DNA from: Methanoregula sp.
Lineage (GTDB): Archaea; Halobacteriota; Methanomicrobia; Methanomicrobiales; Methanospirillaceae
Assembly: GCA_028679075.1 (NCBI GenBank)
Contig: JAJRCF010000001.1
Coordinates: 62,001 to 126,000, forward strand
Direction of reading: 5' to 3'
DNA: 64,000 bases
Of this stretch, positions 3,418-53,545 are shown one piece after another. Position numbers and translations under genes: made by a program. The notes beneath the pieces are model-generated. The model had not been told where the DNA came from. It ran no database searches and saw nothing but the letters and a program-made list of their open reading frames with translations. Numbering within the stretch: position 1 is the first letter of the stretch; each line of letters begins with the position of its first letter.

Positions 3418-4142
3418 TTAACCACTTCTCCGTTTTATCTCTTTTCTACCTGTGAAGACCAGGCCGGCTGCAATGATGGCGATAAAGATACTAAACATCT
3501 GAACGATACGCCCGGCAGGCACGGCATTCGTGACCGGGTAAGAGGGAGATACTCCATCCGGATGACCGCCACCGATTGTGGCGGGACAAATGCCGACAGG
3601 TTCCCACGGTCCGGGATGATTGATGCAGTCATGGACTGGTTCCGTAATGCAGATTTTTCTGCATCTGAAAAGCGGGAAAAATAGTCCGGGCAGACTGTTT
3701 CCAGGTAGGTTCCAACCGATATCTCGTTGCCAGCCAGCGAATTCGAGACGGCGATCATGGATTCACTCATGGTACACTGCCCGGTATAATTCCCCGGGGA
3801 TAGAGGTCGCTGGCCTTCCGGTACCTCCCGGTACCCGGCAATGGCGATGGCAGCGCTGCGTTCACCAAATTGCATGCCTTCATCCGGGTTGCTGAGGTTC
3901 GGCACCCGTACTTTCAGTTTGGAATATCCTTCCCGGATATCCTCCGGCCGGGATTCAAGGTACCCCGGATTCGTAATATCCAGGTATTCTTCTGCCGTCA
4001 CTTCCTGCCCGGCATGCTGCTGTATCCACGAGGTAACGTTTGAAGCGTGATCTCTCTCAGCCTTCTGGACAGCCAGTACAGAGATCGCGGCGACAAGAAT
4101 TATCACGGCAGCCAGTATCAGGATTTTTTTATTCACGTTCAT
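3418..4142 (-). CDS. Membrane-anchored extracytoplasmic protein, interrupted by a one-base frameshift
   Basis: The gene starts at ATG 4142 (MNVNKK, then a signal-anchor helix) and codes an extracytoplasmic domain of about 195 residues with two CxxE/CPDY cysteine regions. Read as is, it ends at 3435 with an atypical tail. If one base is restored near 3545-3552, in the GAGGG/CTCCC run, the tail becomes YPVTNAVPAG plus a membrane helix (MFSIFIAIIAAGLVF) and a basic end, stopping at 3418, two bases before the next gene. That tail looks genuine, so this is a real deletion, a sequencing error or programmed shifting. The family is unknown. Confidence 0.6.
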
Positions 4143-4190
4143 GGATCTTCCTCGCATTTTTACAGATATTCAGGTAATTTCCCCATTTAC

Positions 4191-6332
4191 TCACCCGGGA
4201 TACTCCTTGAATGCGAAAAGGACCCGTTCATCTGCATCGAGCCTGGCAAGGTTCTTCTCCTGCTCCTCTTTATCAGGTTCCATCCGTGAGGTATACTCAA
4301 TATACACCCGTTTCATCGGCGTCAGGTTCATCCCGCTTGCGGAAAGCCTCAGGGTATTTGCCTCAACTGGATTAGCAACTACGAGCGGAATCCTTACCCT
4401 CCCGTTTGTCTGTTTCACTTCCCGCACAAAGTCCCAGTTGTTCTCTATTTCGTAGTTGTATACTCCGCCGACTTCCCGGAGGAGAGAGAAGGTACGGTTG
4501 TAATCTGCATCCGGGATGTCCAGGCAATACCCGTGACTTCCAGATGATTCATAGGCAGGATAAATTTTCAACCGGTAACCAGAGGAAACATAATCGTGAA
4601 CGATTTTATCGATCTCCGCATCGCTCATCGCGGCATCTACATAGAATGCCGAGAACCAGTCCGCCCGTTCATGCCATGCCAGTGTAGACGGCGCAAGAGT
4701 GGGCCGGGGACCCGGTGCCGGGTACACCGGATCGAAGAGTTCCGGAAAAATGGTTGTCTCAGTCTGGAAAATGTATGTCCCGAGCGTGATGACCTCCGGG
4801 CGGGTTAGCGGCCGCTCCCGGGATATACCGGACCGTTCTGCAAACCCGGTCAGGTTCTTCACCTTTTTATCTTCGTTCTCCCATCGTTCGCAGTTGTCGG
4901 CAAAATCTTCGGGTGTTACTTCAGAGAAGATAGAGGGATACGCATCCGTTTCGTTCCCCGGGATTACAGTTCCGGATGAGACTGACAGGGTGTAAGTATC
5001 AACCAGGATCCGGTGGACCTCCCGGGTTACGGGATCATCGGCCTCCAGTATGATCGTAACATTATGGCAGCAGTTGTCCCTGAGTGAATACACCGGGCGC
5101 ACGGAACGTACGGTATCGCCGGGATAGTCATGAGCCGCCGTCTCCCGGGCAACCCGTGTCGCGTTCGCGAGATCATATTCTGAATGGGCGGTTTCCAGCC
5201 CGAACCGGTGCGTGTACAGTCCTTTATTGGCAGTAACAATGATATCGTTGACCGGGACCTCGTCACGTTCGACACCGAAGACGTAATAGAGTTCCCTCCC
5301 TTCGAAGTCCTCGATCACGAACGGGTCTTTCGTGCTCATGCGGGTATTCCGCCATGAACGATCTGCATAACGGTCAGGCCGGTCGGTCACAATGTGCCAG
5401 AGTTTCACGAGCGCATGGTCACGGGAGGTCCCGGCCGGTACCACATTCTCGCTGATCAACCCCTCCGTTACCGGGCGCACCTCGCGTTCATCCGAAGACC
5501 CCGGCGCTCCAGTTTCGGTGTCCGAAGACTCTGCCGTATAGTACTCCTTCAGGATACCCGCACTCTGCTCTGAAAGCGGGGCATGGGGATCGATCCCCCG
5601 GGCCAGTGCATAGTTTAAGATCCGACTTGAGTTTGAGTACTGCACCTGCCACTGCACGCGGCGGTCTGCATAGTCAGTCTCCGGGATCCAGTCGAGGACC
5701 GATTGTGCAACAACATGGCCTTCATAACCGGGAGGAGCCGGGAAGGGAATGATCTGATGGGTATAATCATCGATCACGATCGTCTCCTCGCTGCCGGAGG
5801 ACTTGTTCAGGATCGTAAACATCGTGCCGGTACGGGGATCGCTGTAGAAAACCGTCTTTTTTGCATGGACCGGCCAGCCCGGGTACTGTGCTCCAACAAC
5901 CCGTTCCGCTTCGGTCACGAGAAGGGAGCCGTTCCGTGGCGGGGGAGACTCAAAGATCCGGAACACGCCATGCCCCAGACGTTTGTCTGCCACGGTCCAG
6001 AAGTATCCGGGAACAGTACCGTTGTTCCGCAAGTAAAATTCGTAATATAATGGTGCGCCATTGACATCGTAGATGACAGCGGGCAGGGGATCGAGTGCAG
6101 CCGTAGTCCAGTTCGGGTTCGCAGCGTACGGGCCCTCGATCGCAAAGCCCCAGAAGACGGAGAGGGTCTGGTTGAATGCCGTCATGACCGGAACTGTATC
6201 GGGACCTGCCCCGACGGGAAATTCTTCCGGAAGGGATTGGGATAACGAGAGGTTACGGGACCCCGCACTATCCGTACACCCCGCCCCGATCACCAGCAGC
6301 AAAGCGATCAGGACAAAAGAATATTTTTTCAT
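4191..6332 (-). CDS. Large secreted lipoprotein, unknown function
   Basis: A 713-residue protein with a lipoprotein signal peptide (lipobox VIGAGC, Cys at residue 19) and no other membrane segment, so it should be lipid-anchored outside the membrane. Its repeated segments (VFRIFE, EEYVV/DDYTHQI, VDTYTLSVSSG) recall PepSY/YcdB-like beta modules, but I cannot assign a family. The start has a good ribosome site (GGAAGGAAG). It lies in a run of minus-strand genes for exported proteins, only 17 bases after the preceding gene, suggesting one operon. Confidence 0.7.
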   Translation of the reverse strand: MKKYSFVLIALLLVIGAGCTDSAGSRNLSLSQSLPEEFPVGAGPDTVPVMTAFNQTLSVFWGFAIEGPYAANPNWTTAALDPLPAVIYDVNGAPLYYEFYLRNNGTVPGYFWTVADKRLGHGVFRIFESPPPRNGSLLVTEAERVVGAQYPGWPVHAKKTVFYSDPRTGTMFTILNKSSGSEETIVIDDYTHQIIPFPAPPGYEGHVVAQSVLDWIPETDYADRRVQWQVQYSNSSRILNYALARGIDPHAPLSEQSAGILKEYYTAESSDTETGAPGSSDEREVRPVTEGLISENVVPAGTSRDHALVKLWHIVTDRPDRYADRSWRNTRMSTKDPFVIEDFEGRELYYVFGVERDEVPVNDIIVTANKGLYTHRFGLETAHSEYDLANATRVARETAAHDYPGDTVRSVRPVYSLRDNCCHNVTIILEADDPVTREVHRILVDTYTLSVSSGTVIPGNETDAYPSIFSEVTPEDFADNCERWENEDKKVKNLTGFAERSGISRERPLTRPEVITLGTYIFQTETTIFPELFDPVYPAPGPRPTLAPSTLAWHERADWFSAFYVDAAMSDAEIDKIVHDYVSSGYRLKIYPAYESSGSHGYCLDIPDADYNRTFSLLREVGGVYNYEIENNWDFVREVKQTNGRVRIPLVVANPVEANTLRLSASGMNLTPMKRVYIEYTSRMEPDKEEQEKNLARLDADERVLFAFKEYPG

Positions 6333-6349
6333 GTATCTTCCTTCCTCAT

Positions 6350-7324
6350 TCAGCTACCGCACCCGGTGCTCTCGCGGGAGAGCCACCAGCTCGAACCTGC
6401 CGAGGTCCCATCGTGGACCTGCACGTAAGGCCCGGTGGCGATAAGGTGCGATTGTATCATCCGTTCCGACCCGCGTGCCAGCCTGACCGTATGATTCAGT
6501 CTCCCTATGCTGCCGTCTTCGTTGGTGATCGTGGTCTGCTGCGAACAGAGGGTCCAGGATGGATCGAGTGAATGTGCCGGGCTCGCGACAACGCGTTCGA
6601 CCCGCTGCCCGTACAGTACATAAAATGTTCCTGTTGTCGAGAGTGCGGCAAACGGGGTACCATCGGGCGAGAGATAGATCGCAGCCTGGGTCTTTTTTAC
6701 AATATACAAGGGAGCAGTCCCGTTTTCCGGTGAGGGGAGTGCCAGAAAGACCCGCTTAATGGTGATGTCATAATCCGACGTGAAGTTATAGACGCCCTTC
6801 TGCAGGGCATGCCCGGTGGCGTTGGGCCCCATGCGCCGGTCCCCCACCGGTTCGGGCACCAGGGTACGGGTATGGATCTCTCCACCGGTCTCGAGTATTT
6901 CAGTCATACTCGTACCCTGATCGATGAGAAGGAGCCGTGAGCCCGGAAACTCGTACAGCCCGATAATGGAATCTTCGGTGCCGGTGACGTTTGCCCGGGC
7001 CATGAGACCATCGATGGCCTCCTTGCGAAGGGGATAGTCCAGGATATGCGGCAGGTCCGGCGCCGGCCCCGGTTCACGTACCCCGAATTCATACAGGAAG
7101 CTCGTGGCAAACGCGGGTGTGATCGCACTGGTTATGTTCACCGGGAGGGTATCCGGGCCGCTGGTGCCGACAGGGATGCCGGACCAGGTGCCGGCCGGGA
7201 TAAAATACATATTCGCGACCATATGTGCCGGGTTCAGGACGAGAGTACCAAGCCCTGCAATAAAGATGATACAGATAACAGCGATCAGGATCCAGTTTCG
7301 TTTTTTATTATCCGGAGAATTCAT
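6350..7324 (-). CDS. Membrane-anchored extracytoplasmic protein, unknown function
   Basis: A 324-residue protein with a basic N-terminus, one signal-anchor helix (residues about 11-30) and an extracytoplasmic domain; no C-terminal helix. ATG 7324 is chosen because a purine-rich ribosome site (GAGAGGGAT) precedes it. The domain includes the sequence FAALSTTGTFYVLYG and ends with WWLSRESTGCGS. It sits in the operon-like run of secreted proteins, 17 bases before the large lipoprotein. No recognised family. Confidence 0.6.
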   Translation of the reverse strand: MNSPDNKKRNWILIAVICIIFIAGLGTLVLNPAHMVANMYFIPAGTWSGIPVGTSGPDTLPVNITSAITPAFATSFLYEFGVREPGPAPDLPHILDYPLRKEAIDGLMARANVTGTEDSIIGLYEFPGSRLLLIDQGTSMTEILETGGEIHTRTLVPEPVGDRRMGPNATGHALQKGVYNFTSDYDITIKRVFLALPSPENGTAPLYIVKKTQAAIYLSPDGTPFAALSTTGTFYVLYGQRVERVVASPAHSLDPSWTLCSQQTTITNEDGSIGRLNHTVRLARGSERMIQSHLIATGPYVQVHDGTSAGSSWWLSRESTGCGS

Positions 7325-7392
7325 GAGATCCCTCTCATTTTTCCCGTACTGCAGCAACCGGCAGACAAACCAGAAGACAGAAACCGCATCGC

Positions 7393-8232
7393 TCATCCCC
7401 TCGTGGCATTAATCAGCAGAGGAAAAGGGTCGAGATCAGTTCCCGGTTTAAACCCGTAAAAAATCCAGACCGGGATAACGGTATCCGGTGGGGTCTCCGG
7501 TCCCGGGGCGTACGGGAACCTTGTGTCGAATGCCCTGACATAATACCCGGACTGCACCCGGGTTATGTGGTAACCGTCAAGACTGCTTTGGATAGGTCTG
7601 AGCAGGTCACGGGCCCTGAGTTTTTCCATCGCCTCTTCTGCAGAAATGACCGGAACTTCTCCGGCAGGGGCAAGGGTGCTCCAGTCTTTTGAGATATCCA
7701 ATAGTTCCCCGCCTTCCCCAAGCAGGACCGAAAGCCCGGAATTCATCACCGGGGAACCGTTGACGTACTGGCGGTATATCACCTGCGTGTACTGCGGGTA
7801 CTGCTCCTCAACGGTTTCGGTCATGAGGTTGTATTTTTTCATGAAGACCTGTTCTGTCCGTTCAAGGACCGCATCGGCCGGCAGACCGCCGTACGCAACA
7901 AGGGCTTTCTCTGCAAGCCCGGGTGCTTCCCCAACTGCCGGGATCTCTTTTTTTACCGTTAAGGCCGTGCCGGTGCCGGCAGAGTACTGCTCAACGGATA
8001 CGACACGGTAGAGCGGGACGGTTACCGGGGATGCAGGCAGCAGGACGTCTAGGGTGATCGTGCGGTCGTATGCCGCGAGGTCCGTGGAAGGGCCGGTATT
8101 CACCGGAGGAGACATAGGCACTGCCGGGTGTCCCGGGATCCCGAGCATGCTGATGGTAAAGACCATGCACCCGGCAAGGAATACTGCGATGACGAGCCCG
8201 CTGCCAATGGCGATAAGTTCACGGGCATTCAT
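7393..8232 (-). CDS. Membrane-anchored two-domain protein of the YcdB/PepSY-like type
   Basis: A 279-residue protein: N-terminal anchor or lipoprotein-like signal (VFLAGC), then two alpha/beta modules. The first includes GLPADAV; the second carries YRQYVNGSPVMNSGLSVLLG, the same pattern as VWFGRELNGIPVEGTQL and FNYRRIIQGVPCSNNGF in the proteins at 49330-50313 and 31648-32778, and it ends with VIPVWIFYG. These are therefore distant paralogs. PepSY-like domains often accompany or inhibit extracellular peptidases, but nothing here fixes a function. Start choice is moderate; no clear ribosome site. Confidence 0.6.
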   Translation of the reverse strand: MNARELIAIGSGLVIAVFLAGCMVFTISMLGIPGHPAVPMSPPVNTGPSTDLAAYDRTITLDVLLPASPVTVPLYRVVSVEQYSAGTGTALTVKKEIPAVGEAPGLAEKALVAYGGLPADAVLERTEQVFMKKYNLMTETVEEQYPQYTQVIYRQYVNGSPVMNSGLSVLLGEGGELLDISKDWSTLAPAGEVPVISAEEAMEKLRARDLLRPIQSSLDGYHITRVQSGYYVRAFDTRFPYAPGPETPPDTVIPVWIFYGFKPGTDLDPFPLLINATRG

Positions 8233-8536
8233 GGGAGGCAACGAGACGCTGGCAGGGTACCGGGCCCTGTGACCGTCACACCGGGATGAGCGGAGATTTT
8301 CCGGCATTCACCGGACTCATGCCGGGGTGCCCATGCGGGAATACCGGAAAAGAAGATCGCATCGCCGGGTATCGCGGCGTTTATTTTATAATTCATGTAA
8401 CAACCAAATCCCTGGATCAAAAACCGGTGGAATTTTATTATATATATAATTTCTAGACATTTACTCGACCGATGAATCAGGAAAACTGGAAAATTACGGG
8501 AGAGGTGACCTGACCGGTCCCGTACACGTCCCTGCA

Positions 8537-9376
8537 TCACTTCGATATGCTCCGGGCCATGACTTTCTGCCAGACCGGGCTGGTGAGGTTCGGGTAGTCC
8601 CCCCCGGCTGCCGAATAGATCCCGCCGGACTCCTGCCAGCCATGTACTTCCCCGGTGTGGAACCAGGAGTACCCGTCGGAACAATGATTATCCTTGGTGC
8701 GCCAGCTCTCCTTCCAGCTGTTTTCAACAATAACGTGGGAAGCGATATTCACGACTGCTGATGGCGATGATGAGTAATCGATGTAGATCATCAGGTGCTG
8801 GGGGACTACATCAACCTCATGATACTTCGTGAGATCAGGGTCCTTGCTGGCGATCATCTCTGTTGATTCCGGTGAAAACTTTACTTTCTGCAGGAAGAGG
8901 GACTGGTTGCCGATAGGATAGACGGTCTCCTGGAATTCAAGCGGGGAATCCAGGGGGGTGCGTTCCTCGTGGATGAACAGGAACTCGGTCCCGTGCGTCT
9001 CGTTCGGGTATAACCGGTCGGCGGTCAGTTTCAGGTACAGCGGTTGTGAACCATTGACTGGAATTGTCCAGTCGGGGTCCATGCCGGGAGGGGATCGGAC
9101 GAACGCGACCGAGATGTTCTCCCGCGCAAAAAATTCCTCGGTTAAGTAAAATGATCCGGCAACGGGCGAACCATTCTTTATCGGCAGCGGGAGATAGAGG
9201 GTCACGTTGGTGAGCGGTTCCGTTGAGTGGATCATCATCTGGTAGTGCTCGCTGGAGGAAAACTCGTGGGGGTCGGGATCAAAAATGAACCCGTTACTGA
9301 GCATGAAGTGTGCCAGCATGAAGAGTATGATACAGAGCAGGAGCAGGACCGCCGGGTGCCGGATATTCAGGTTCAT
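8537..9376 (-). CDS. Secreted/membrane-anchored protein, unknown function
   Basis: A 279-residue protein with one N-terminal helix (residues about 9-28) and an extracytoplasmic beta-rich domain containing many N-x-S/T sites (NVTLYLPLP, ENISV). ATG 9376 with CAGGGA just upstream marks the start; the longer reading upstream is antisense to the gene at 9512-9814. It is the first gene of the minus-strand exported-protein run, with an AT-rich gap of about 300 bases separating it from the next. Family not recognised. Confidence 0.6.
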   Translation of the reverse strand: MNLNIRHPAVLLLLCIILFMLAHFMLSNGFIFDPDPHEFSSSEHYQMMIHSTEPLTNVTLYLPLPIKNGSPVAGSFYLTEEFFARENISVAFVRSPPGMDPDWTIPVNGSQPLYLKLTADRLYPNETHGTEFLFIHEERTPLDSPLEFQETVYPIGNQSLFLQKVKFSPESTEMIASKDPDLTKYHEVDVVPQHLMIYIDYSSSPSAVVNIASHVIVENSWKESWRTKDNHCSDGYSWFHTGEVHGWQESGGIYSAAGGDYPNLTSPVWQKVMARSISK

Positions 9377-9511
9377 TCCCTGATCGTCAGATGCAGGAGT
9401 AAATAAAAATGGTGAAATGATCCTGGCAAAATAGATCCGGTACCGGAATACTATCCGGATGAACGGATTCGGACCGCTATCTTTTTTGCACCGGCCCATG
9501 CATGAATCCGT

Positions 9512-9814
9512 ATGGCAGCAACAACCTACATCATAAAACAGCTCGGTATCGAAAGTGTCGGGAAATTTTTTGCAGTCTTCGGACTGGTCTGGGGATTTTT
9601 TGTGGGACTCGTCTTCGCAGCCGGGGTCACTACAATGGGGGTCGGGATGGGTGTTGCCCCTGTCGGGTTTTTCGGGGGGCTCGTTGCGCTGGGCATCACG
9701 ACAATCATCGGCGGAGTTATGGGATTCATTGGCGGGGCAATCGTTGCCATCATCTACAACCTTGTGCTCGGGGCGACCGGGGGCATTGAGATGGACCTGG
9801 AAGTCAAGGCGTAA
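9512..9814 (+). CDS. Small DUF3566-like membrane protein
   Basis: A 100-residue protein. A short amphipathic start (TYIIKQLGIESVGKF) leads into two long glycine-rich membrane helices (GLVWGFFVGLVFAAG and LGITTIIGGVMGFIGGAIVAIIYN). The arrangement resembles the DUF3566 transmembrane family found in archaea and actinobacteria. No function is known, and the match is from pattern only. Confidence 0.6.
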   Translation: MAATTYIIKQLGIESVGKFFAVFGLVWGFFVGLVFAAGVTTMGVGMGVAPVGFFGGLVALGITTIIGGVMGFIGGAIVAIIYNLVLGATGGIEMDLEVKA

Positions 9815-10006
9815 CAATTTCTTTTTTAAAAATTTTCACCTGCACAGGGAGGGGTAATCTTAAAAATATTTTTTCTCCATCATCTCAGGGTCTTCTCTTG
9901 TTGATGTGCTGATGAAAATTTGTAGTAACCGAAAGCGAACCGGTATTTTCAAAGAGAGATAAAACCGCAATAATAATATTTCTGAGGCTCCCATATCACG
10001 TAGCTC

Positions 10007-31647: not shown

Positions 31648-32778
31648 TTAAGGTCCGGAGCGGTTATGGAAGTAGGTAATCGACAACAGGGTGCCGTTCT
31701 GCGCATCGACCCATCCCTCTTCCGGGACAGGGAATTGCCATGCCCGGATCGTGTTATCATCAAACCGGACCCTCCAGACAAGGGGGATGACGCCGGGCAA
31801 TGGGAGATACTTTTCATGGTTGTAGGTATCCATCCACAGGAGATCCGCAGATACGATCCTGAAACTGCCAGCCGATTCCGGATAGCATGCCTTGGCTTCC
31901 CGCTCAACAAGCGCTATCGCTGCGTCACGGGAAATGGCCGGGACGGATTGTGCTGCGACTGCATTCTCCGGTGTGTCCCATGCCTTATAGTACATGACGA
32001 CGTTACCGGTTCCGGGATCCACCCTGATGTTAAAACCGTTGTTGCTGCAGGGAACTCCCTGGATGATTCTCCGATAATTAAAGAGGTATTCGTTACCGTC
32101 AAGATGTGAATCGATCAGTTGGAGAGGGAGTTCACCATTCCGTTCCCGGATCTCGTCCTCCGCAGTCAGCCGTGCACTCTCCATGGTTGTAGCGGCGAGA
32201 TGGGGGACCTCCACCGGACCTATCCACGACCGGTGTGAAACAACAGAATATAACATGAGATCGCCGGTATACGCATCAAGTGTACCAACGACAAGTTGTT
32301 GATCGCCCATACGCATGTTAAAATGCCACATCCGGTTGTTGACAGAGCCATCGGAATACTCCATCTCAATACGGTCGGGGGAATATTGCGGGAACGCTGA
32401 TCGGGCAATACTTTCCGCCTCTTCTCTCGTTATCACCGCTCCTTTCTTCGTGTACTGAGAGGAGTAGTTTCCCGCTGATACCGCAGTGAATGCCGATGTA
32501 TTGTAATAGGAGAAACCGTCTATACTCGGGACGTTCACGTCTTCAAACCGGACCATGGAACATTTGTTTGCAGTTTTTTCAGAAGATGAGTCCGTTGCTG
32601 TTGTTGTCAGCCCGGTTGGTACCGGAACAGCAGGATTCGCCTTGACACCGGTATCGGACAGGACAGGGGGATTGATTTCATGGCTGTCTATGAGCGCAGG
32701 AACGATGATCCCTGTTGCAATGATGACGAGTATCGCAGCCAGAATAATACCGGTATACGCGAGATACCTCTTTTTCAT
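31648..32778 (-). CDS. Membrane-anchored YcdB/YcdC-like domain protein
   Basis: A 376-residue protein with one N-terminal helix (residues about 6-28), a Thr/Ser-rich linker and two repeats of a YcdB-like module. The phrase NYRRIIQGVPCSNNGFNIRVDPGTGNVV is characteristic of YcdB/YcdC domains, and VWRVRFDD follows. It ends DAQNGTLLSITYFHNRSGP. It is related to the anchored proteins at 7393, 49330 and 51507. It sits on the opposite strand between hemA and hemB. Role unknown. Confidence 0.7.
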   Translation of the reverse strand: MKKRYLAYTGIILAAILVIIATGIIVPALIDSHEINPPVLSDTGVKANPAVPVPTGLTTTATDSSSEKTANKCSMVRFEDVNVPSIDGFSYYNTSAFTAVSAGNYSSQYTKKGAVITREEAESIARSAFPQYSPDRIEMEYSDGSVNNRMWHFNMRMGDQQLVVGTLDAYTGDLMLYSVVSHRSWIGPVEVPHLAATTMESARLTAEDEIRERNGELPLQLIDSHLDGNEYLFNYRRIIQGVPCSNNGFNIRVDPGTGNVVMYYKAWDTPENAVAAQSVPAISRDAAIALVEREAKACYPESAGSFRIVSADLLWMDTYNHEKYLPLPGVIPLVWRVRFDDNTIRAWQFPVPEEGWVDAQNGTLLSITYFHNRSGP

Positions 32779-33053
32779 TAAAACACCGTGCAATATAATT
32801 TGTGCATTATGTTAAAAATATTTATCTTTTTATCTTTAATTGCATGGGAACTCCAGATCCGCGCCGGATTGTATTTCTCCTGCATAATAATAAATCTCTA
32901 AAATACCTGAGACATTGGGTTGAACGTCCCGGTTTGATCCTGAACTGGCAGGTCAGTCTTTAAAGGAGTAATTTTTTTTAAAGTATTGTCCCGTTCACGG
33001 GATCTTCTAAATCCGACAGGTCCGTCAGGACCTGGAGGAGGAGAAGATTCCCA

Positions 33054-46236: not shown

Positions 46237-47085
46237 ATGATTGTCAGAGATTACATGACATCCGACGTGGTCCACGTCGAAATTCCGGGCAACCGCGATG
46301 ATGTCCTCAAGATCCTCAAGCGCACGGGAATCTCCGGTGTACCGGTCATCAAGAACAAGAAGATCGTCGGTATCATCACCCGGAAAGACCTGCTCCGTAA
46401 GCCGGAAGAGACCCAGCTCGGGCTCCTGATGACCTCAAAGCCGATCACCATCGGACCGGATATGGAGATCCGCGAGGCCGCAAAACTCCTTGTCACGAAG
46501 CGCATCCGGAGGCTGCCGGTCGTGGAGGACAACCACCTGCTCGGCCTCCTCTCGGTCGCGGATATCGTCCATGCCCTTGCCCAGATGAAGATCAAGGACG
46601 AGATCAAGGACAAGTATACCAGCAGCACGTTTGCCCTCTGGGAAGAGACCCCCCTGCCGGTCGTGGGCCGCGTCATGGAGATCTCCGGTGTCGATGCGGT
46701 CCCGATCCTCGACAGCGAGAACAGGCTGCAGGGCATCATCTCGGAGCGGGACCTGATCCGGAGCTCGAGCATCGAGGATTCCGTTGGCGTCTCCGATTTC
46801 TCCAACGGGACCGATGACGACGAATGGACCTGGGAGAGCATCCGGGACAACCACACGATCAGTTTCGGCATCTCGAAAGTGCAGCTGCCCAACCGGCCGG
46901 TCAAGCTTGCGATGGTCAAAAATGTCGTGGCAGTCCCGCAGAACGCGGAAGTGAGCGAGTGTGCCTTAAAGATGCGCCGCTCGCGTGTTGACCAGTTGCC
47001 CGTCGTGAACGGCGACAAGAAACTGGTGGCCATGCTCTATGACCGCGACCTGATCAAGGCCTTCTGCAACGAAGAGCCTGAATAA
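46237..47085 (+). CDS. Four-CBS-domain protein
   Basis: A 282-residue protein made of four CBS motifs (MTSDVVHVEIP, MTSKPITIGPD, VMEISGVDAVPIL, AMVKNVVAVPQ) with no other domain. CBS pairs bind adenosyl ligands such as AMP, ATP, SAM or methylthioadenosine. Probably cotranscribed with the universal stress protein. Confidence 0.92.
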   Translation: MIVRDYMTSDVVHVEIPGNRDDVLKILKRTGISGVPVIKNKKIVGIITRKDLLRKPEETQLGLLMTSKPITIGPDMEIREAAKLLVTKRIRRLPVVEDNHLLGLLSVADIVHALAQMKIKDEIKDKYTSSTFALWEETPLPVVGRVMEISGVDAVPILDSENRLQGIISERDLIRSSSIEDSVGVSDFSNGTDDDEWTWESIRDNHTISFGISKVQLPNRPVKLAMVKNVVAVPQNAEVSECALKMRRSRVDQLPVVNGDKKLVAMLYDRDLIKAFCNEEPE

Positions 47086-47565
47086 AAACCTTTAGAGCCG
47101 CATCAACGCGATAAAAAATATTTCTTTTTTATGATCTATCTACAAAGCGCAGCCATTCCTTTGCCGGGCCTCTTAAAAAAAATGTCGTGGGCAAGGAGAT
47201 GATGAAACGTGGGGCCCACCTGATGTTCGTGGTTTATACTGGCATTAAAACATAAAAAGGTTTTTTAAAAATAATTAATAATTTTAATGTCGTTGTAAAA
47301 TTTTAACATGCTTTTAAAATTTTTATAGCAATTAACATTTTTAAAAATAAAAAACAAAAGATATATAGTTATTAATTGTGAAATCACAATTGTGGCAGTT
47401 GAAAATCATTGCCCAATCCAACTCGCTCAAAAGAAAGGACGGACTCACCCATCTTACGAGGGTCGGATGAGTCCATTCCTGCCTGTAAGGCATGATACAA
47501 TTTACTTCTCGGCTTATGAAGATTTGTGTCGTGCCTCTGCAAGGCTGAATAGGAGGCATCAGCAC
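47086..47565. other. AT-rich promoter and long leader of the DUF6345 locus
   Basis: About 47230-47370 is extremely AT-rich. A TATA-like word and an inverted repeat follow (47360-47390), then about 175 bases of leader with a GGACTCA/TGAGTCC dyad (47442-47475) and AGGAGG at 47551-47556 before the ATG. The leader is open in frame 1 but has no signal-like character. Confidence 0.5.
47360..47390 (+). promoter_or_regulatory. TATA box followed by inverted repeat ATTGTGA-AA-TCACAAT
   Basis: AGATATATAG is followed within five bases by a perfect seven-base dyad at 47375-47390. A dyad just downstream of TATA is well placed for a repressor of the DUF6345 cassettes. Confidence 0.45.
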
Positions 47566-49311
47566 ATGAAATTATGGAAATCAGACACTATTCTGTTCAT
47601 CGCAGTGATAATGATCCTGATCATCATTCCCGTGGTCAGTGCGAACCCGGTATTGAATGGCACGGTAAATGAAAGTATAACCGAATCAACAATTGTACCT
47701 TCTGATAATGATACCAGATTGAATTTCCAACCCGATACAATGAGTAATACCAGTACGTCGTATGGAGGAGAATCCTCCTCTAACACTACATTTGCGGCAA
47801 GGAATTCGACTGCTGCAACAAGTCTGGCGGCGTTGGGTTCGCCATTCATCTTTAGCGGGAAATATGCCAGTCCCCCTTCCGGTGCAAAGTCTGCCCAGGA
47901 CTACGATCATTATGTATCGTTCACAATGCGGGCAAATTCTCTCGCCCCGAATTATGCGTACGATCTGGTGAACCGCGGTGATCTGTCAGACGGTTCCCGC
48001 TGGGTCTATAACATGTACATGTACGGAACCTCCAGCTCAGGACTCAACGGGCGCATCCAGGTCTCGGGTAATAATCATGTAACGCACAGCTGGTGTGACC
48101 TATCCCCCCTGTCGTCTACAGTCATTTCACCGCTGACGAATTATTCTATCGTCTGGCAGTACAGTAATACGTCCGGTGGGGAACTGTTCATCAACAATGT
48201 ATCACAGGGAAGTACTAGCTCGGCTTGTCTGGACACTTCTCTGTCATCCGCATTTCATGTCGGGGAGAACATGTACAATGGAGGCGGACGCCAGCATTCG
48301 GCATTCTATGGGACGATCTCAAACGTTTACCATTTCGAGCGGGACCTGGTCCCCGTCGCCAACTTCACCGGCAGTCCGCTCTCCGGCACCGCGCCGTTAA
48401 ACGTAACCTTCACCGATACCTCAACCGGCTCGCCAACCAATTGGTCGTGGAATTTTGGCGATGGTGGGAATTCGACTGCCCGTAACACATCACACACGTA
48501 TACTGTAGCGGGAACGTATGATGTCAGCCTGACGGCGGCGAATGCAGATGGGAGCGATACGGAGGAGAAGGAGGGGTATGTGGCAGTCAACGCGAGGACA
48601 ACGTATTATGTGTATGCCGACGGTGTTGGAAAGTACAACGGATACCAGGAAGATCTATGGTGGGGCAATAAGACGCCCGTCGATTTCTTTACCAACCTTT
48701 CAGGGAAACAAGGTGACCCTTACTCAACAATTCATTGGGAAGGAATAGCGAACCCCATCGATGATACCACCGGAGAAAGGAATTGGAATAAATCTGAGGA
48801 TGCAAATACAATGGCTAATAATGCCGACTTCGCGTTCCATGCCGGTCATGGTGAAGCCGATCGCATTGCCTTTGGCACCCAGAACACAGCATATGATTTG
48901 TACCGATCGGATATGGAGTTCGGAGGGAACAACGGGAAAGCCAAATGGGTTGCGCTATCAGCATGCAAAGTCCTCAATCAGAGCACCTGGACAAATTGGA
49001 AATCCGTATTCAACGGCCTTCATATCCTGATGGGATTTGATACCGAAGGGAAATTGGGACCGGATCAAGGGGGCCAGTTCGCGAAACGGATGACGGGAGG
49101 CGGGTTATATCCGGCGCCAGTTTCAATTAGTGATGCTTGGAAGTATACCCTCCAGAATACTGTTGATGATACCTCAGTCAAGGGAGCCTATATGTGGGCT
49201 GAGCCTTGTATGGATGATTATCTCCCGGGGTTTGGCAGTTTCAGTGAACCAACAAAAGACAGTAACGGCCAGTATACGATTAACTGGACATCATTTGAGT
49301 GTATTTTGTAA
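47566..49311 (+). CDS. Secreted LamG-PKD-DUF6345 protein, copy 1 (caspase-like motifs)
   Basis: A 581-residue protein. Signal peptide residues 1-28 (WKSDTILFIAVIMILIIIPVVSA); a concanavalin/LamG-like domain about 90-260; a PKD domain about 264-345 (WSWNFGDG); and a C-terminal DUF6345 domain about 350-581. The last has HAGHG at 425-429 and SAC with Cys 467, the order and spacing of the His-Gly and Ala-Cys dyad of clan CD (caspase, gingipain, CHAT) peptidases. No C-terminal anchor. AGGAGG precedes ATG 47566. Peptidase activity is inference. It leads a likely four-gene operon. Confidence 0.8.
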   Translation: MKLWKSDTILFIAVIMILIIIPVVSANPVLNGTVNESITESTIVPSDNDTRLNFQPDTMSNTSTSYGGESSSNTTFAARNSTAATSLAALGSPFIFSGKYASPPSGAKSAQDYDHYVSFTMRANSLAPNYAYDLVNRGDLSDGSRWVYNMYMYGTSSSGLNGRIQVSGNNHVTHSWCDLSPLSSTVISPLTNYSIVWQYSNTSGGELFINNVSQGSTSSACLDTSLSSAFHVGENMYNGGGRQHSAFYGTISNVYHFERDLVPVANFTGSPLSGTAPLNVTFTDTSTGSPTNWSWNFGDGGNSTARNTSHTYTVAGTYDVSLTAANADGSDTEEKEGYVAVNARTTYYVYADGVGKYNGYQEDLWWGNKTPVDFFTNLSGKQGDPYSTIHWEGIANPIDDTTGERNWNKSEDANTMANNADFAFHAGHGEADRIAFGTQNTAYDLYRSDMEFGGNNGKAKWVALSACKVLNQSTWTNWKSVFNGLHILMGFDTEGKLGPDQGGQFAKRMTGGGLYPAPVSISDAWKYTLQNTVDDTSVKGAYMWAEPCMDDYLPGFGSFSEPTKDSNGQYTINWTSFECIL

Positions 49312-49329
49312 AAGGAAGCGGGTGTCAAA

Positions 49330-50313
49330 ATGGAAAAAAGAAACATTATCGGAATTACTTTGATTATTGGGATTGTTGTTGTGATTTTATTGTTATGGGG
49401 TCACAATAACATCATCATTCCGGTGGAAACGAACAAGACAACACAACCGATTACTGTACCGGAATCTCAATCCGATCAGGTAATGGGAAAGGTATCTCAT
49501 TCAATAACTCTTGAGAAAAGTGTGAAGGATAACGTGGGGAAAATTATGGTATACAAAACGGTACCTCAACACTACACTCGCCAGGACATCCTCACACTAG
49601 CAAAGAAATTCAATATAAGTCCCATTGGGCGGATAAAGGAAGTGGCAGAGGGTTCCAGTGTTGCATCGTTTGATGGGAAAATTCAAGCTATCCTCCATAA
49701 TTCCGGATTTGCCGAGTATCACAATTCCAACCAAAAACGTACTGTTAATTCCCTTGACGTTCCGGGAAATTTTCCATCCGATGATGAAGCAGTGAAGATT
49801 GCAACAAAGTTCCTGAAAGATCAGGATCTTTTACCCGATGGAGCCGTTTTTAGTGGAACAACTTACGGAGAAATTCATGGGACCGCAAAAGATGGCACTG
49901 ATATCGTATTTCGGGAAGATATCGAAGTTTGGTTCGGGCGAGAATTAAATGGCATCCCTGTCGAAGGAACGCAACTGATGCTGGCCATTGGTGCAGATGG
50001 CACACCGATTGATTATTTTACCAATTGGCGAAACTACGAACAATATAAGGAAATGCTGGTAAAAACCCCCGAACAAGCATTCGAAGACCTCAAAGTAAAA
50101 GGTGTTTCTGTCGGGATGAATGTCCCCGATAAGGTTACAATCACTAATATGTATTTGGCATACAGGACAAAAGCCGGAGCAGAAACCGAGGAATATCTCG
50201 AACCGGTCTGGGTATTCAAAGGCGATGTAATAGTGAACGATAAATCCGTTATGCCAATTAAGGCATACATCCCGGCACTCACCGATGAATCTGTGAAATC
50301 ACTCTCTTCATAA
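49330..50313 (+). CDS. Membrane-anchored partner protein, copy 1
   Basis: A 327-residue protein with a signal-anchor helix (residues about 5-23) and two extracytoplasmic alpha/beta modules. The first includes LAKKFNIS and SLDVPGNFPSDDEAVKIATKFL; the second WFGRELNGIPVEGTQLMLAIG. This resembles PepSY/YcdB/YycI-type folds. It starts 18 bases after the DUF6345 gene. About 45% of residues appear shared with the copy at 51507 by eye. A role as inhibitor, chaperone or receptor of the secreted protein is inference from pairing alone. Confidence 0.75.
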   Translation: MEKRNIIGITLIIGIVVVILLLWGHNNIIIPVETNKTTQPITVPESQSDQVMGKVSHSITLEKSVKDNVGKIMVYKTVPQHYTRQDILTLAKKFNISPIGRIKEVAEGSSVASFDGKIQAILHNSGFAEYHNSNQKRTVNSLDVPGNFPSDDEAVKIATKFLKDQDLLPDGAVFSGTTYGEIHGTAKDGTDIVFREDIEVWFGRELNGIPVEGTQLMLAIGADGTPIDYFTNWRNYEQYKEMLVKTPEQAFEDLKVKGVSVGMNVPDKVTITNMYLAYRTKAGAETEEYLEPVWVFKGDVIVNDKSVMPIKAYIPALTDESVKSLSS

Positions 50314-50323
50314 TTTTTTCTCT

Positions 50324-51499
50324 ATGAGATTTTCCATTTCATCTGTCTCAGGCAACCGTTATATCAACAATGTTTCACAGGGCCCGGCAACCGGCACCGG
50401 AACGCTGGACACTTCTCTGTCATCCGCATTTCATGTCGGGGAGAACATGTACAATGGAGGCAGACGCCAGCATTCGGCATTCTATGGGACGATCTCAAAC
50501 GTTTACCATTTCGAGCGGGACCTGGTCCCCGTCGCCAACTTCACCGGCTCGCCCCTTTCCGGCACCGCACCGTTGAACGTCACCTTCACCGATACCTCAA
50601 CCGGCTCACCTACCAATTGGTCGTGGAATTTTGGCGATGGCGACAGCACGAATTCCACCATGCGGAATCCACTGCATACATATGCTTCGGTCGGGATGTA
50701 TAATGTCAGCTTAACGGCGGCGAATGCGTTCGGTAACGATACAGAGGAGAAGGTAGGGTATGTGATAGTGACGGCACCGCAAACGATGTTTTATGTGTAT
50801 GCTGAAGGCGTCGGAATGTATCATGGAACGCAGGACGATTTAAGCCTGGGAAATCAAACGCCCGGGGATTTTTATAATCTCATTAATGGCCAGTGTGGCA
50901 CGGTCGATACCGATAAGTGCTGGTATGGGCGGGGGATATACCTCGATGATAATGCCGGCTCAGTTCATTGGAGTACCACTGAACAGGCAAGCAGTTATGC
51001 AGATAATGCGGATTTCTCTGTATTTGTAGGTCATGGATCGAATAATGGCATAGTTTTCGGCACACAAAATACAGCCCTTGAATTATCCCGTTCAAACATG
51101 CAGTTCGGAGGCAACCAGGCAAAATGGGTGACGTTCTTTGCATGCGATGTGCTGAACCAGAGCACCCAGACGAATTGGGAATCCGTGTTCAACGGGGTGC
51201 ATATTGTGAACGGGTTCGATACTCACGGACTGTTGTATGAAGAGCAGGGAACAAAATATGCGCAGATGTTGACTGGGTTGGGTGGGGGATATGATCGAAT
51301 GAAAATCCGAGATGCTTGGAGAATGACGTTACAGGAAACAATCAACAAAGAATATATCAAGGGGGCTTACATGTGGGCAAATCCCTGCGGGAACGACTAT
51401 CTCCCGGGATTCGGGGATTATTGCACATCATCTCCGACAAAGGACCAGAATGAAAATTACGATATCGAATGGGAGAATTTCGAATGTATAACATCATAA
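50324..51499 (+). CDS. PKD-DUF6345 protein, copy 2, lacking the signal peptide
   Basis: A 391-residue protein that begins inside the LamG-like domain (INNVSQG) and lacks the signal peptide and about 210 N-terminal residues of copy 1. The PKD domain (about 70-150) and DUF6345 domain are complete, with VGHG (His 237) and FFAC (Cys 274) retained. ATG 50324 has no good ribosome site. DNA at 50405-50547 matches copy 1 with one difference. It may be a cytoplasmic form, a recombination reservoir or a decaying gene. Confidence 0.7.
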   Translation: MRFSISSVSGNRYINNVSQGPATGTGTLDTSLSSAFHVGENMYNGGRRQHSAFYGTISNVYHFERDLVPVANFTGSPLSGTAPLNVTFTDTSTGSPTNWSWNFGDGDSTNSTMRNPLHTYASVGMYNVSLTAANAFGNDTEEKVGYVIVTAPQTMFYVYAEGVGMYHGTQDDLSLGNQTPGDFYNLINGQCGTVDTDKCWYGRGIYLDDNAGSVHWSTTEQASSYADNADFSVFVGHGSNNGIVFGTQNTALELSRSNMQFGGNQAKWVTFFACDVLNQSTQTNWESVFNGVHIVNGFDTHGLLYEEQGTKYAQMLTGLGGGYDRMKIRDAWRMTLQETINKEYIKGAYMWANPCGNDYLPGFGDYCTSSPTKDQNENYDIEWENFECITS

Positions 51500-51506
51500 G
51501 ACGGTG

Positions 51507-52511
51507 ATGATGATGAAAAAAGAACATATTATCGGATTATGCCTGATTCTAGTAATTGCAGGTATTAGTGGGATTGCTTTCTGGCTTCAGCCATCAAGTA
51601 CGTCTCAAAAAATACTGACCAATGAATCTCTTCAAGAACAATTCCAGAGTACTTATGGTGAAGTGGCGGGAGGATCGTTATCCTATAAAATCGAATTCAC
51701 TGCCAAGAAACCAAATGCACCTGAAAAGGTTGCCGTATATAAGACGGTTCAGCCGAAGGTGACGAAAACCAATGCCATTGCGTTTGCGAAGAAATTCAAT
51801 ATCACTGATTTCAACGAACCAAAAGAAGGAGACTCAGTTATTTCGGTATCTTCAAAGAATATGAGATATCGTGTGATGTTATATAAAAATGGCGGGAGTG
51901 TGTATTGGGATTCAGAAAGATCCGATACTCCTAATGAGATCGACATTACAGAAAACCTCCCCTCCGATGAAGAAGCAAAGAAGATTGCCACATCATTCTT
52001 GAAAGAACGGGATCTTTTACCAGACGGTGCAGTTGTCGGAGGTACAGAACACCGGAAAGCATACAAATCGAATAAGAGCAGCGGATCGAAAACGGTAGTT
52101 TGGGAGGATATTCTTGTCTGGTATACCCGCGAACTCAACGGCATGAAAGTAGAAGGAACCCAATTCGAGGTGGAAGTTGGCGGACACGGGGATATCATTC
52201 GGTTCTTCTCCAACTGGAAAGATTACGAGACAATCGGAGAATACCCTATCAAATCCCAAGAATCTTCTATTGAGACCTTGAAACAAAAAGGAGTTTCAAC
52301 CGCAGCCGGTCCGGATAAACCCGACACGATCTCGATCAACGAAATATACCTAGGATATGAAACAACAGCGGTAGCGTACAAGGAAGAATATCTGGAACCG
52401 GTCTGGGTGTTCAAAGGGGAAGCGCTGAAGAACGGGACTTCAATCGGGCCGGTAAAGGAATTCGTTCCTGCACTTACTGAAGATTCAAAGAAATCACTTT
52501 CATCAATATAA
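51507..52511 (+). CDS. Membrane-anchored partner protein, copy 2
   Basis: A 334-residue paralog of the protein at 49330: anchor helix near residues 6-25, then the same two modules (FAKKFNITDF, ENLPSDEEAKKIATSFLKERDLLPDGAV, WYTRELNGMKVEGTQFEVEVGG) and the end VFKGEALKNG...FVPALTEDSKKSLSS. A GTG at 51504 and ATGs at 51507, 51510 and 51513 are all possible starts. It follows DUF6345 copy 2 by only a few bases. Confidence 0.75.
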   Translation: MMMKKEHIIGLCLILVIAGISGIAFWLQPSSTSQKILTNESLQEQFQSTYGEVAGGSLSYKIEFTAKKPNAPEKVAVYKTVQPKVTKTNAIAFAKKFNITDFNEPKEGDSVISVSSKNMRYRVMLYKNGGSVYWDSERSDTPNEIDITENLPSDEEAKKIATSFLKERDLLPDGAVVGGTEHRKAYKSNKSSGSKTVVWEDILVWYTRELNGMKVEGTQFEVEVGGHGDIIRFFSNWKDYETIGEYPIKSQESSIETLKQKGVSTAAGPDKPDTISINEIYLGYETTAVAYKEEYLEPVWVFKGEALKNGTSIGPVKEFVPALTEDSKKSLSSI

Positions 52512-52517
52512 TTTTTC

Positions 52518-52787
52518 ATGCTGATGGAACCAATCCCTTCCGGTCCATCCGGCCCCGGCATATACACGGTCAACATAGACCTCCACTGGACTGATGGCTA
52601 TACCTGCAACAACACAACCCCAACGCCCGACCCGAACTCGACCACGACAGCTACCCCGACACTAATGTCCGGCACGGTGCCGTTGAACGTCACCTTCACC
52701 GATACTAGTATTAACACCCTGACCCTCGTCCCAAGAAAAAATGATTATCCTGCGCGCAGAATGTATATTCAGTGTTCGGCGGAGTGA
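52518..52787 (+). pseudogene. Remnant of a third PKD/DUF6345 gene
   Basis: The frame starts after the partner gene and contains a short PKD piece (SGTVPLNVTFTDTS, about 52670-52711) whose DNA closely matches the PKD start of copies 1 and 2. The flanking sequence is Thr/Pro-rich and then loses protein character. There is no LamG or DUF6345 part. Confidence 0.5.
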
Positions 52788-52840
52788 GAGACAATTCACG
52801 CGGCAATGCACCGTTAGAAACCTTTAAGTTTCCCAATATC

Positions 52841-52856
52841 ATTTAAATTATTTAAA
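52841..52856 (+). promoter_or_regulatory. Promoter of psmB
   Basis: ATTTAAATTATTTAAA, an AT-rich TATA-like sequence, lies 48 bases before the psmB ATG in otherwise GC-rich DNA. Confidence 0.45.
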
Positions 52857-52903
52857 GCGCTTTTAGCAAATTTTAGGCGTTTATTTGTTTTTGGGGTGTT
52901 AAT

Positions 52904-53545
52904 ATGCCTGAACAGTTACAGGAGTCCATGAAGGGGACCACCACCATCGGCATTGTTTTTGCCGGTGGCGTCATCCTCGCAACCGAGAAACGGGCGACCA
53001 TGGGCAGCATGATCGCAAGCAAGAAAGCGAAGAAAGTATACCAGGTCGCAGACCGGATCGGCCTGACCACGGCCGGCGGTGTCGGCGATGCACAGCAGCT
53101 TGCACGCATCCTCTCGGTGGAATGCAACCTGTACCAGATCCGCAGGTCCCGCCCGATCACGGTCGGTGCCACTGCAACGCTTCTTTCGAACTATCTCAAC
53201 CAGAACCGCATGTACCCGTACTATGTCCAGCTCCTTGTTGGCGGCATTGACGAGAAGGGCCCGAGTGTCTATTCCGTTGATGCGATGGGCGGTGCAACAA
53301 AGGAAGAGGAGATCGTGTCAACCGGTTCCGGTTCGCCCATGGCGTACGGTGTGCTGGAAGACAGGTTCAAGCCGGACATGAGCGAGGACGAGGCGATCGA
53401 GCTCTCGATCCGCGGCCTGAAATCCGCAATGAAGCGCGATTCCGCATCCGGTGAAGGGATCCATGTTGTAGTGATCACGAAAGACAAGTACCAGGAACTC
53501 AGCGAGGATGCAGTCAGGAAATATTCTGCCAAAACCGCAGCATAA
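52904..53545 (+). CDS. psmB: 20S proteasome beta subunit
   Basis: A 213-residue precursor. An 11-residue propeptide (MPEQLQESMKG) precedes TTTIGIVFAGGV; cleavage frees the catalytic Thr 12. The catalytic Lys (ATEKRATMGS) and the SGSP loop (STGSGSPMAYG) are present. It forms the inner rings of the archaeal proteasome with an alpha subunit not encoded here. fttA follows 22 bases downstream, an association known in archaeal genomes. Confidence 0.96.
   Translation: MPEQLQESMKGTTTIGIVFAGGVILATEKRATMGSMIASKKAKKVYQVADRIGLTTAGGVGDAQQLARILSVECNLYQIRRSRPITVGATATLLSNYLNQNRMYPYYVQLLVGGIDEKGPSVYSVDAMGGATKEEEIVSTGSGSPMAYGVLEDRFKPDMSEDEAIELSIRGLKSAMKRDSASGEGIHVVVITKDKYQELSEDAVRKYSAKTAA

Follow-up and report, generated by a model that had tools for sequence, protein, structure and literature searches.

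We examined two pairs of genes in a 64,000-nt stretch of DNA from Methanoregula sp. (GenBank assembly GCA_028679075.1, contig JAJRCF010000001.1, positions 62,001 to 126,000), which we call the window and number from its first letter. The pairs are open reading frames (ORFs) of the + strand at 47566–52511; each consists of a gene for a DUF6345 protein, called D, and a gene for a membrane-anchored partner, called T. Both D proteins belong to Pfam family PF19872, scoring 91.4 bits (D1) and 104.6 bits (D2) against a cut-off of 26.9, both carry a PKD domain, and T1 shares 41% identity with T2 over 338 columns. This upholds the original prediction, made from the sequence alone, of two PKD-DUF6345 genes each followed by a gene for an anchored protein.

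D1 (47566–49311, 581 residues) has AGGAGG before its start at 47566 and a hydrophobic, signal-type N-terminus (mean 3.5 over 15 residues), followed by a stalk, a PKD domain (48361–48588, PF18911/PF00801) and the DUF6345 domain (48619–49272, with the codon of His428 at 48847 and that of Cys467 at 48964). No Pfam family matched the D1 stalk, and a LamG-like label given to it by eye is unsupported. The ATG of T1 (49330–50313, 327 residues) comes 18 nt after the D1 stop; the protein has a single N-terminal helix (residues 4–22) and then an alpha+beta outer part. D2 (50324–51499, 391 residues), whose ATG lies 10 nt after the T1 stop, comprises a truncated stalk, a PKD domain and the DUF6345 domain (50804–51403, His237 codon at 51032, Cys274 codon at 51143). 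Its partner T2 (51504–52511, 335 residues) starts with GTG 4 nt beyond the D2 stop. All these genes lie on the + strand, as does an 89-residue ORF with a PKD fragment (52518–52787). A 38-nt PKD repeat present in both copies, at 48382 and 50558, recurs in this ORF at 52668–52705 with 92% identity, so the PKD remnant noted originally is real; the ORF is a remnant of a third cassette, and its residues 7–69 are 39% identical to stalk residues 136–225 of the D protein on contig C10 of the same genome.

The two cassettes are not the equals they were taken for. D2 has neither a hydrophobic N-terminus nor an earlier in-frame start, and by eye it shows no ribosome-binding site; D1 alone has the AGGAGG and signal-type N-terminus. 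Copy 2 is therefore read as an orphan module with a truncated stalk, probably a silent one: its export is unlikely, and it may not be expressed. Six loci hold two near-complete D genes. In four of these the second copy is clearly without a hydrophobic N-terminus; L035 is a borderline case, and in L181 the second copy does have such an N-terminus (L and G numbers are our labels for loci and genomes). The first copy has a hydrophobic N-terminus in five of the six, that of L034 running off the end of the DNA fetched for that locus.

Adjacency, co-inheritance and exchange of D and T

Searches for D and T across 232 genomes of the order (E ≤ 0.001) found D in 45 and T in 71; 42 genomes have both, three have D only and 29 T only. 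The D-only genomes are G041 and G044, with fragments, and G150, with a divergent partner. Several T-only genomes are incomplete bins, and one-contig genomes among them include G068, G153 and G221. Among named genomes, those found with the closest D genes are Methanoregula and Methanolinea bins.

T comes directly downstream of D on the same strand for 73 of 75 near-complete D genes, five of these pairs being fused and 68 in trans. To be counted, a D domain had to cover at least 120 profile positions and be followed by 400 nt of sequence or more. Near-identical genomes were kept; L100 and L118, which lacked the room, were left out, as were fragments of D and the G150 array. The exceptions are L129, where the D match is weak, and L189, where T is on the opposite strand. 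The count includes 20 loci fetched outside the order, where 27 genomes had a match and 20 of them supplied one locus each; T adjoins D in 19 of these 20, and most of the 20 loci show a compact pair of signal-bearing D and T. The genome of origin itself (2.5 Mb in 40 contigs) has five D domains, two in the window and the other three singly on contigs C5, C15 and C10, and T adjoins every one; on C15 both lie within one 558-residue ORF. The adjacency proposed originally is thus not confined to a single genome; the further idea that T is a dedicated partner needs amending, as T is not exclusive to D (71 vs 45 genomes).

In the 1.8-Mb genome G150 we found ten D copies within 58 kb, three with an internal stop. 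A similar ORF follows nine of the ten by eye, the tenth having none, and four of these downstream ORFs, once aligned, match T by profile comparison (probability 96.5%). The array (L080–L083; G150:C1, about 1403800–1461400) is built of repeats of several kb, which hold a minus-strand gene that by eye looks like an HUH-type Rep and has no Pfam match; the array is possibly an integrated element amplified in tandem.

We compared D and T distances over 65 non-identical pairs with T of at least 150 residues. The two matrices correlate with a Mantel r of 0.82, and 2000 free permutations reach at most 0.12. When T was swapped within genomes only, r averaged 0.61 and peaked at 0.80, with none of 2000 permutations reaching the observed value. 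Nearest neighbours agree for D and T in 39 of the 65 pairs. These comparisons indicate that D and T are inherited together.

The window copies share a stalk/PKD stretch (48229–48464 and 50405–50640) of 95% DNA identity over 236 nt, whereas their D domains are only 58% identical in DNA. The D2-T2 pair has its own relative in another Methanoregula (G061, taken as STB_131): from the D domain to just past the T2 stop (50756–52516, +) the DNA is 79.7% identical over 1768 columns, and the G061 D has a different, signal-bearing stalk. Sliding identity places the change in similarity between about 50630 and 50870. L034, from another species, shows the same contrast, with 86% identity over 646 columns of stalk and 51% for D. 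No long shared stalk was found in L035, L086, L124 or L181, L035 having one 64-nt match, and in L031 the two copies are alike in both stalk and D. Two L031 D genes at first looked as though their middle had been deleted beside an intact T; they were considered as evidence of decay and rejected, the gaps being runs of N. From the DNA comparisons, the D domain and T are swapped as one unit between different surface stalks, an addition to what was predicted originally.

Predicted folds of D and T

A model of the D domain was built from nine rows (the window and loci L073–L077 and L079). In clan CD, according to passages of PMC4357240, the catalytic His and then the Cys stand at the C-terminal ends of consecutive core strands. 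The model has its elements in this order: strand 81–85 is followed by G86-H87-G88, and strand 120–126 ends in Cys126, with short strands 92–94 and 103–105 between the His strand and the Cys strand. Foldseek found four matches in the PDB at E ≤ 0.001, all of them chains of SAVED-CHAT 8tl0 (best 2.9e-5). The next matches (E 0.002–0.2) are mostly caspases (caspase-11, caspase-1), CED-3, MALT1 and gingipain R.

Among 87 aligned D domains (at least 120 positions each, near-identical genomes included) the His and the Cys are kept in 87/87 and the Gly after the His in 80/87. A third His, found in the motif GLHxxxGF in D1-like members, is kept in 84/87. His428 and Cys467 make up the conserved dyad of D1, His237 and Cys274 that of D2. 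Of the two residues originally named, Cys467 was right, and the His was placed too early: His425 is the earlier His of the D1 motif FHAGHG, with Val at the same place in D2. D likely has a clan CD-like, caspase-type fold with a His/Cys dyad. The model bears out the original expectation in the order of its elements and its CHAT and caspase matches, and did not turn out to have an unrelated fold.

A sequence search of the PDB with D gave four matches (E 0.35–1.1), none of clan CD, and no clan CD Pfam family was found among 23 D members scanned. Sequence-level proof of clan CD membership was rejected, as the profile comparison with archaeal CHAT proteins, given below, was not significant. Because there is no significant sequence link to the clan, the fold is the main argument. 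D resembles the clan CD families (caspases C14, gingipain C25, legumain C13, CHAT) in its His and then Cys at consecutive strand ends, in the Gly beside the His and in its best structural matches; it differs in the missing significant sequence match, in its pairing with a PepSY/YycI-like membrane protein and in the third, largely conserved His.

For T, Pfam scores fall below the cut-offs in both window copies (FTP, 16.4 vs 21, for T1; DUF4901, 17.7 vs 27, for T2). When 30 T rows were scanned singly at E ≤ 0.05, nine matched FTP, eight DUF4901 and seven YycI. The T1 model, from 11 rows (predicted local distance difference test, pLDDT, 78), matches 5coz, an uncharacterised Eubacterium protein (1.1e-7), and YycI 2o3o (3.9e-7); weaker matches are the Aspergillus metalloproteinase chain 4k90_B (2.1e-4) and vibriolysin 3nqz_A (0.019), both of which we take to be propeptide chains. 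YycI has one N-terminal helix, with its modules outside. T is accordingly predicted to be a PepSY/YycI-like membrane-anchored protein that shares its fold with YycI and metallopeptidase propeptides, which agrees with the PepSY/YcdB-like partner first proposed, sub-threshold as the Pfam matches of T1 and T2 are. These two groups resemble T in fold; unlike the metallopeptidase propeptides, T stands beside a cysteine-type peptidase candidate, and in trans in 68 of 73 pairs.

Insertion site, T arrays and broken copies

The island is flanked on the left by a gene for a CBS-domain protein (46237–47085, +; Pfam CBS), which adjoins psmB in relatives, and on the right by psmB itself, for the proteasome beta subunit (52904–53545, +; Pfam Proteasome). 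Of 97 genomes matched by psmB, 30 supplied loci for comparison, the window's own included. In 29/29 of the others CBS and psmB are 88–184 nt apart, measured between alignments, vs 5.8 kb here. The D-T island is an insertion between two conserved neighbour genes. Folding of 52760–52860 was unremarkable for a hairpin at its right edge (z −0.92). The D1 query had no match in plasmid or phage collections at E ≤ 0.01, and an eight-row D alignment had none in viral contigs, so no mobile carrier is named.

One D may be accompanied by several T genes: five in L085 and L088, four in L087 and two in L084. T paralogues within arrays are 66–83% identical, and the D-adjacent T of L087 shares 82% identity with the second T of L085 against 63% with the first. 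These arrays are like the homogeneous polyimmunity loci that passages of PMC3482391 describe as not interrupted by toxin genes.

T occurs in other settings as well. It forms the C-terminus of the L133 and L134 surface proteins, which by eye look like YVTN-propeller, IPT and PKD proteins. At L105, L141 and L142 T stands behind about 200–350 extra N-terminal residues of uncharacterised kind. In a second class, of which four proteins were scanned, T carries 2 to 11 PKD domains; at L094, L098 and L099 the T proteins have 1228–1370 residues with 10–11 PKD domains, so that the stalk sits on the partner. Pairing of solo T with a conserved secreted enzyme was considered and rejected: the upstream ORFs differ, except at L143 and L144, which are alike and from one genus. 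Elsewhere in the window, a further T-like protein is encoded at 7396–8307 (− strand; E 3.4e-37 to the T profile) with no D match beside it. It has a sub-threshold Pfam match only, and four neighbour ORFs scanned (3435–9817) had none at E ≤ 0.01. Another protein, at 31651–32793 (− strand), passes the Pfam cut-off for DUF4901/YcdB (35 bits vs 27), has a sub-threshold PepSY match, and is weakly related to T (E 5.8e-4).

Next to an intact T, the D gene is broken in L103, L113, L115 and L119 and reduced to fragments in L114 and L035. Sequencing error is possible in broken D and T genes, since several of the genomes are drafts.

Possible function and known systems

We give an even chance to the reading that D is an exported clan CD-type cysteine peptidase and T its cognate membrane-anchored inhibitor, swapped as units and used in competition or kin recognition between archaea with T as the immunity protein. 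The signal peptide would export D, the PKD stalk would present the caspase-like domain, and the His/Cys dyad would cut peptide bonds outside the cell, as predicted from fold and conservation. T, in the producer's cytoplasmic membrane by its one helix and with PepSY/YycI-like modules outside, would bind and restrain its cognate D, much as FTP/PepSY propeptides act on their peptidases; adjacency, fusions and co-inheritance point to this putative restraint. Exchange of D with T would change specificity and keep self-protection, and extra T genes may protect against the D of neighbours, as the genome architecture suggests. Older units would be left behind as unexported orphans. Orphan units left behind and extra T genes kept suggest that the system is probably for competition or kin recognition. 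Fold class, dyad conservation, adjacency, co-inheritance, module exchange and insertion come from computation; peptidase activity, inhibition by T and the role in competition we infer.

Several observations weigh against this reading. Confidence in the D model is modest (mean pLDDT 64, predicted template modelling score 0.74), its Foldseek TM-scores are low (about 0.2–0.5), and some unrelated folds appear among the weaker matches from rank 17 on. In hhalign, D against four archaeal CHAT proteins was not significant (E 0.029, probability 1.7%, Cys half only), and the 87-row D profile against archaeal CHAT aligned the HG and SAC motifs in register at E 0.035; controls were weaker, at E 0.72 and 0.41 for T and 0.17–0.8 for five column shuffles. 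The likeness of T is stronger to YycI, a regulator and not a peptidase inhibitor, than to propeptides. T is also found on its own and as the C-terminal part of large surface proteins, and a broken T accompanies an intact D in L093 and in the second L086 cassette. Of the six loci holding two near-complete D genes, two show the shared-stalk signature. A signal-type N-terminus is missing as well from ten single-copy D genes that carry no edge flag, so its absence is not confined to second copies. The five fused D-T pairs are odd for pure immunity; they suggest that T acts directly on D, and an inhibitor or prodomain would account for them more easily than immunity by itself.

It is somewhat unlikely that no conflict is involved, D being a housekeeping peptidase of surface maturation or turnover, T its tether, chaperone or zymogen-type inhibitor, and the T arrays variants in dosage or specificity. 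Fusion in five of 73 pairs would place T in cis like a C-terminal prodomain, and the resemblance of T to metallopeptidase propeptides, the compact pairs of most loci outside the order and the lack of a PADLOC match (0 anti-phage families at E ≤ 0.01 for D1, T1, D2 and T2) would all fit. Patchy presence (45/232 genomes), exchange of units between different stalks, orphan modules without a signal peptide and T kept without D in 29 genomes argue the other way. We regard as improbable a signalling module in which T, like YycI, is a sensor or transmitter and D passes on a signal by cutting T or some other surface protein. Multi-T arrays and module exchange would be unusual for such a module, and by eye the ORFs upstream of solo T genes, the only side inspected, include no common kinase or regulator; YycI is nonetheless among the best structural matches of T, and its topology is that predicted for T. 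A non-enzymatic binding or adhesion domain of caspase-like fold would suit the attachment of D to PKD stalks and its lack of a known activity, and is very improbable given the strict conservation of His and Cys in all aligned D domains.

The peptidase-inhibitor reading invites comparison with polymorphic toxins. Caspase-like C-terminal toxins are known in these systems (PMC3482391, in passages), and the same passages describe, for toxins with Tox-Caspase C-terminal domains, a variable C-terminal module with a partner gene directly downstream, orphan modules without the N-terminal part, and tandem partner genes (polyimmunity), all as in D-T. A shared N-terminal part with an exchangeable C-terminal module was found in the window copies, the D2-T2 unit having another stalk in G061, and the shared stalk was found in L034 too. 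Unlike polymorphic toxins, D has PKD stalks behind an apparent Sec-type signal, its C-terminal domain stays one family, and its toxicity is conjecture; the partner is PepSY/YycI-like, and the word PepSY does not occur in the first 300,000 of the 357,715 characters of available text of PMC3482391. An earlier PepSY-type immunity family was likewise not found in the literature searched, which included those passages. The VARTIG modules of Thermococcales (PMC8416519, in part) are also hypervariable archaeal islands, with a surface stalk protein and then variable genes, and that source mentions PKD loci in Methanomicrobiales. They differ from D-T in being centred on CARDB Ig domains, and the words peptidase, PepSY and caspase are absent from the text of that source.

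Archaeal metacaspases have been described (PMC3501461, in part), and polymorphic toxin systems are given, in passages of PMC3482391, as generally absent from archaea with rare exceptions. DUF6345/PF19872 was not found in the literature searched; an earlier mention in a review of archaeal polymorphic toxins is possible. Our most specific proposal is tentative, with somewhat less than an even chance: in D-T, methanogens and related archaea may have a polymorphic effector-immunity system whose exported caspase-like peptidase modules act outside the cell at the envelope and pass between PKD stalks along with cognate PepSY/YycI-like immunity proteins anchored in the membrane, which would leave silent orphans and build up T-rich immunity arrays.

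A domain of unknown function, DUF6345, here gains a partner, together with a fold and a dyad that are both likely. If D-T serves competition, archaea would have a weapon that uses a peptidase at the envelope, and a new immunity fold. If it serves housekeeping, DUF6345 would still be a candidate for a widespread exported cysteine peptidase, paired with a candidate inhibitor bound to the membrane.

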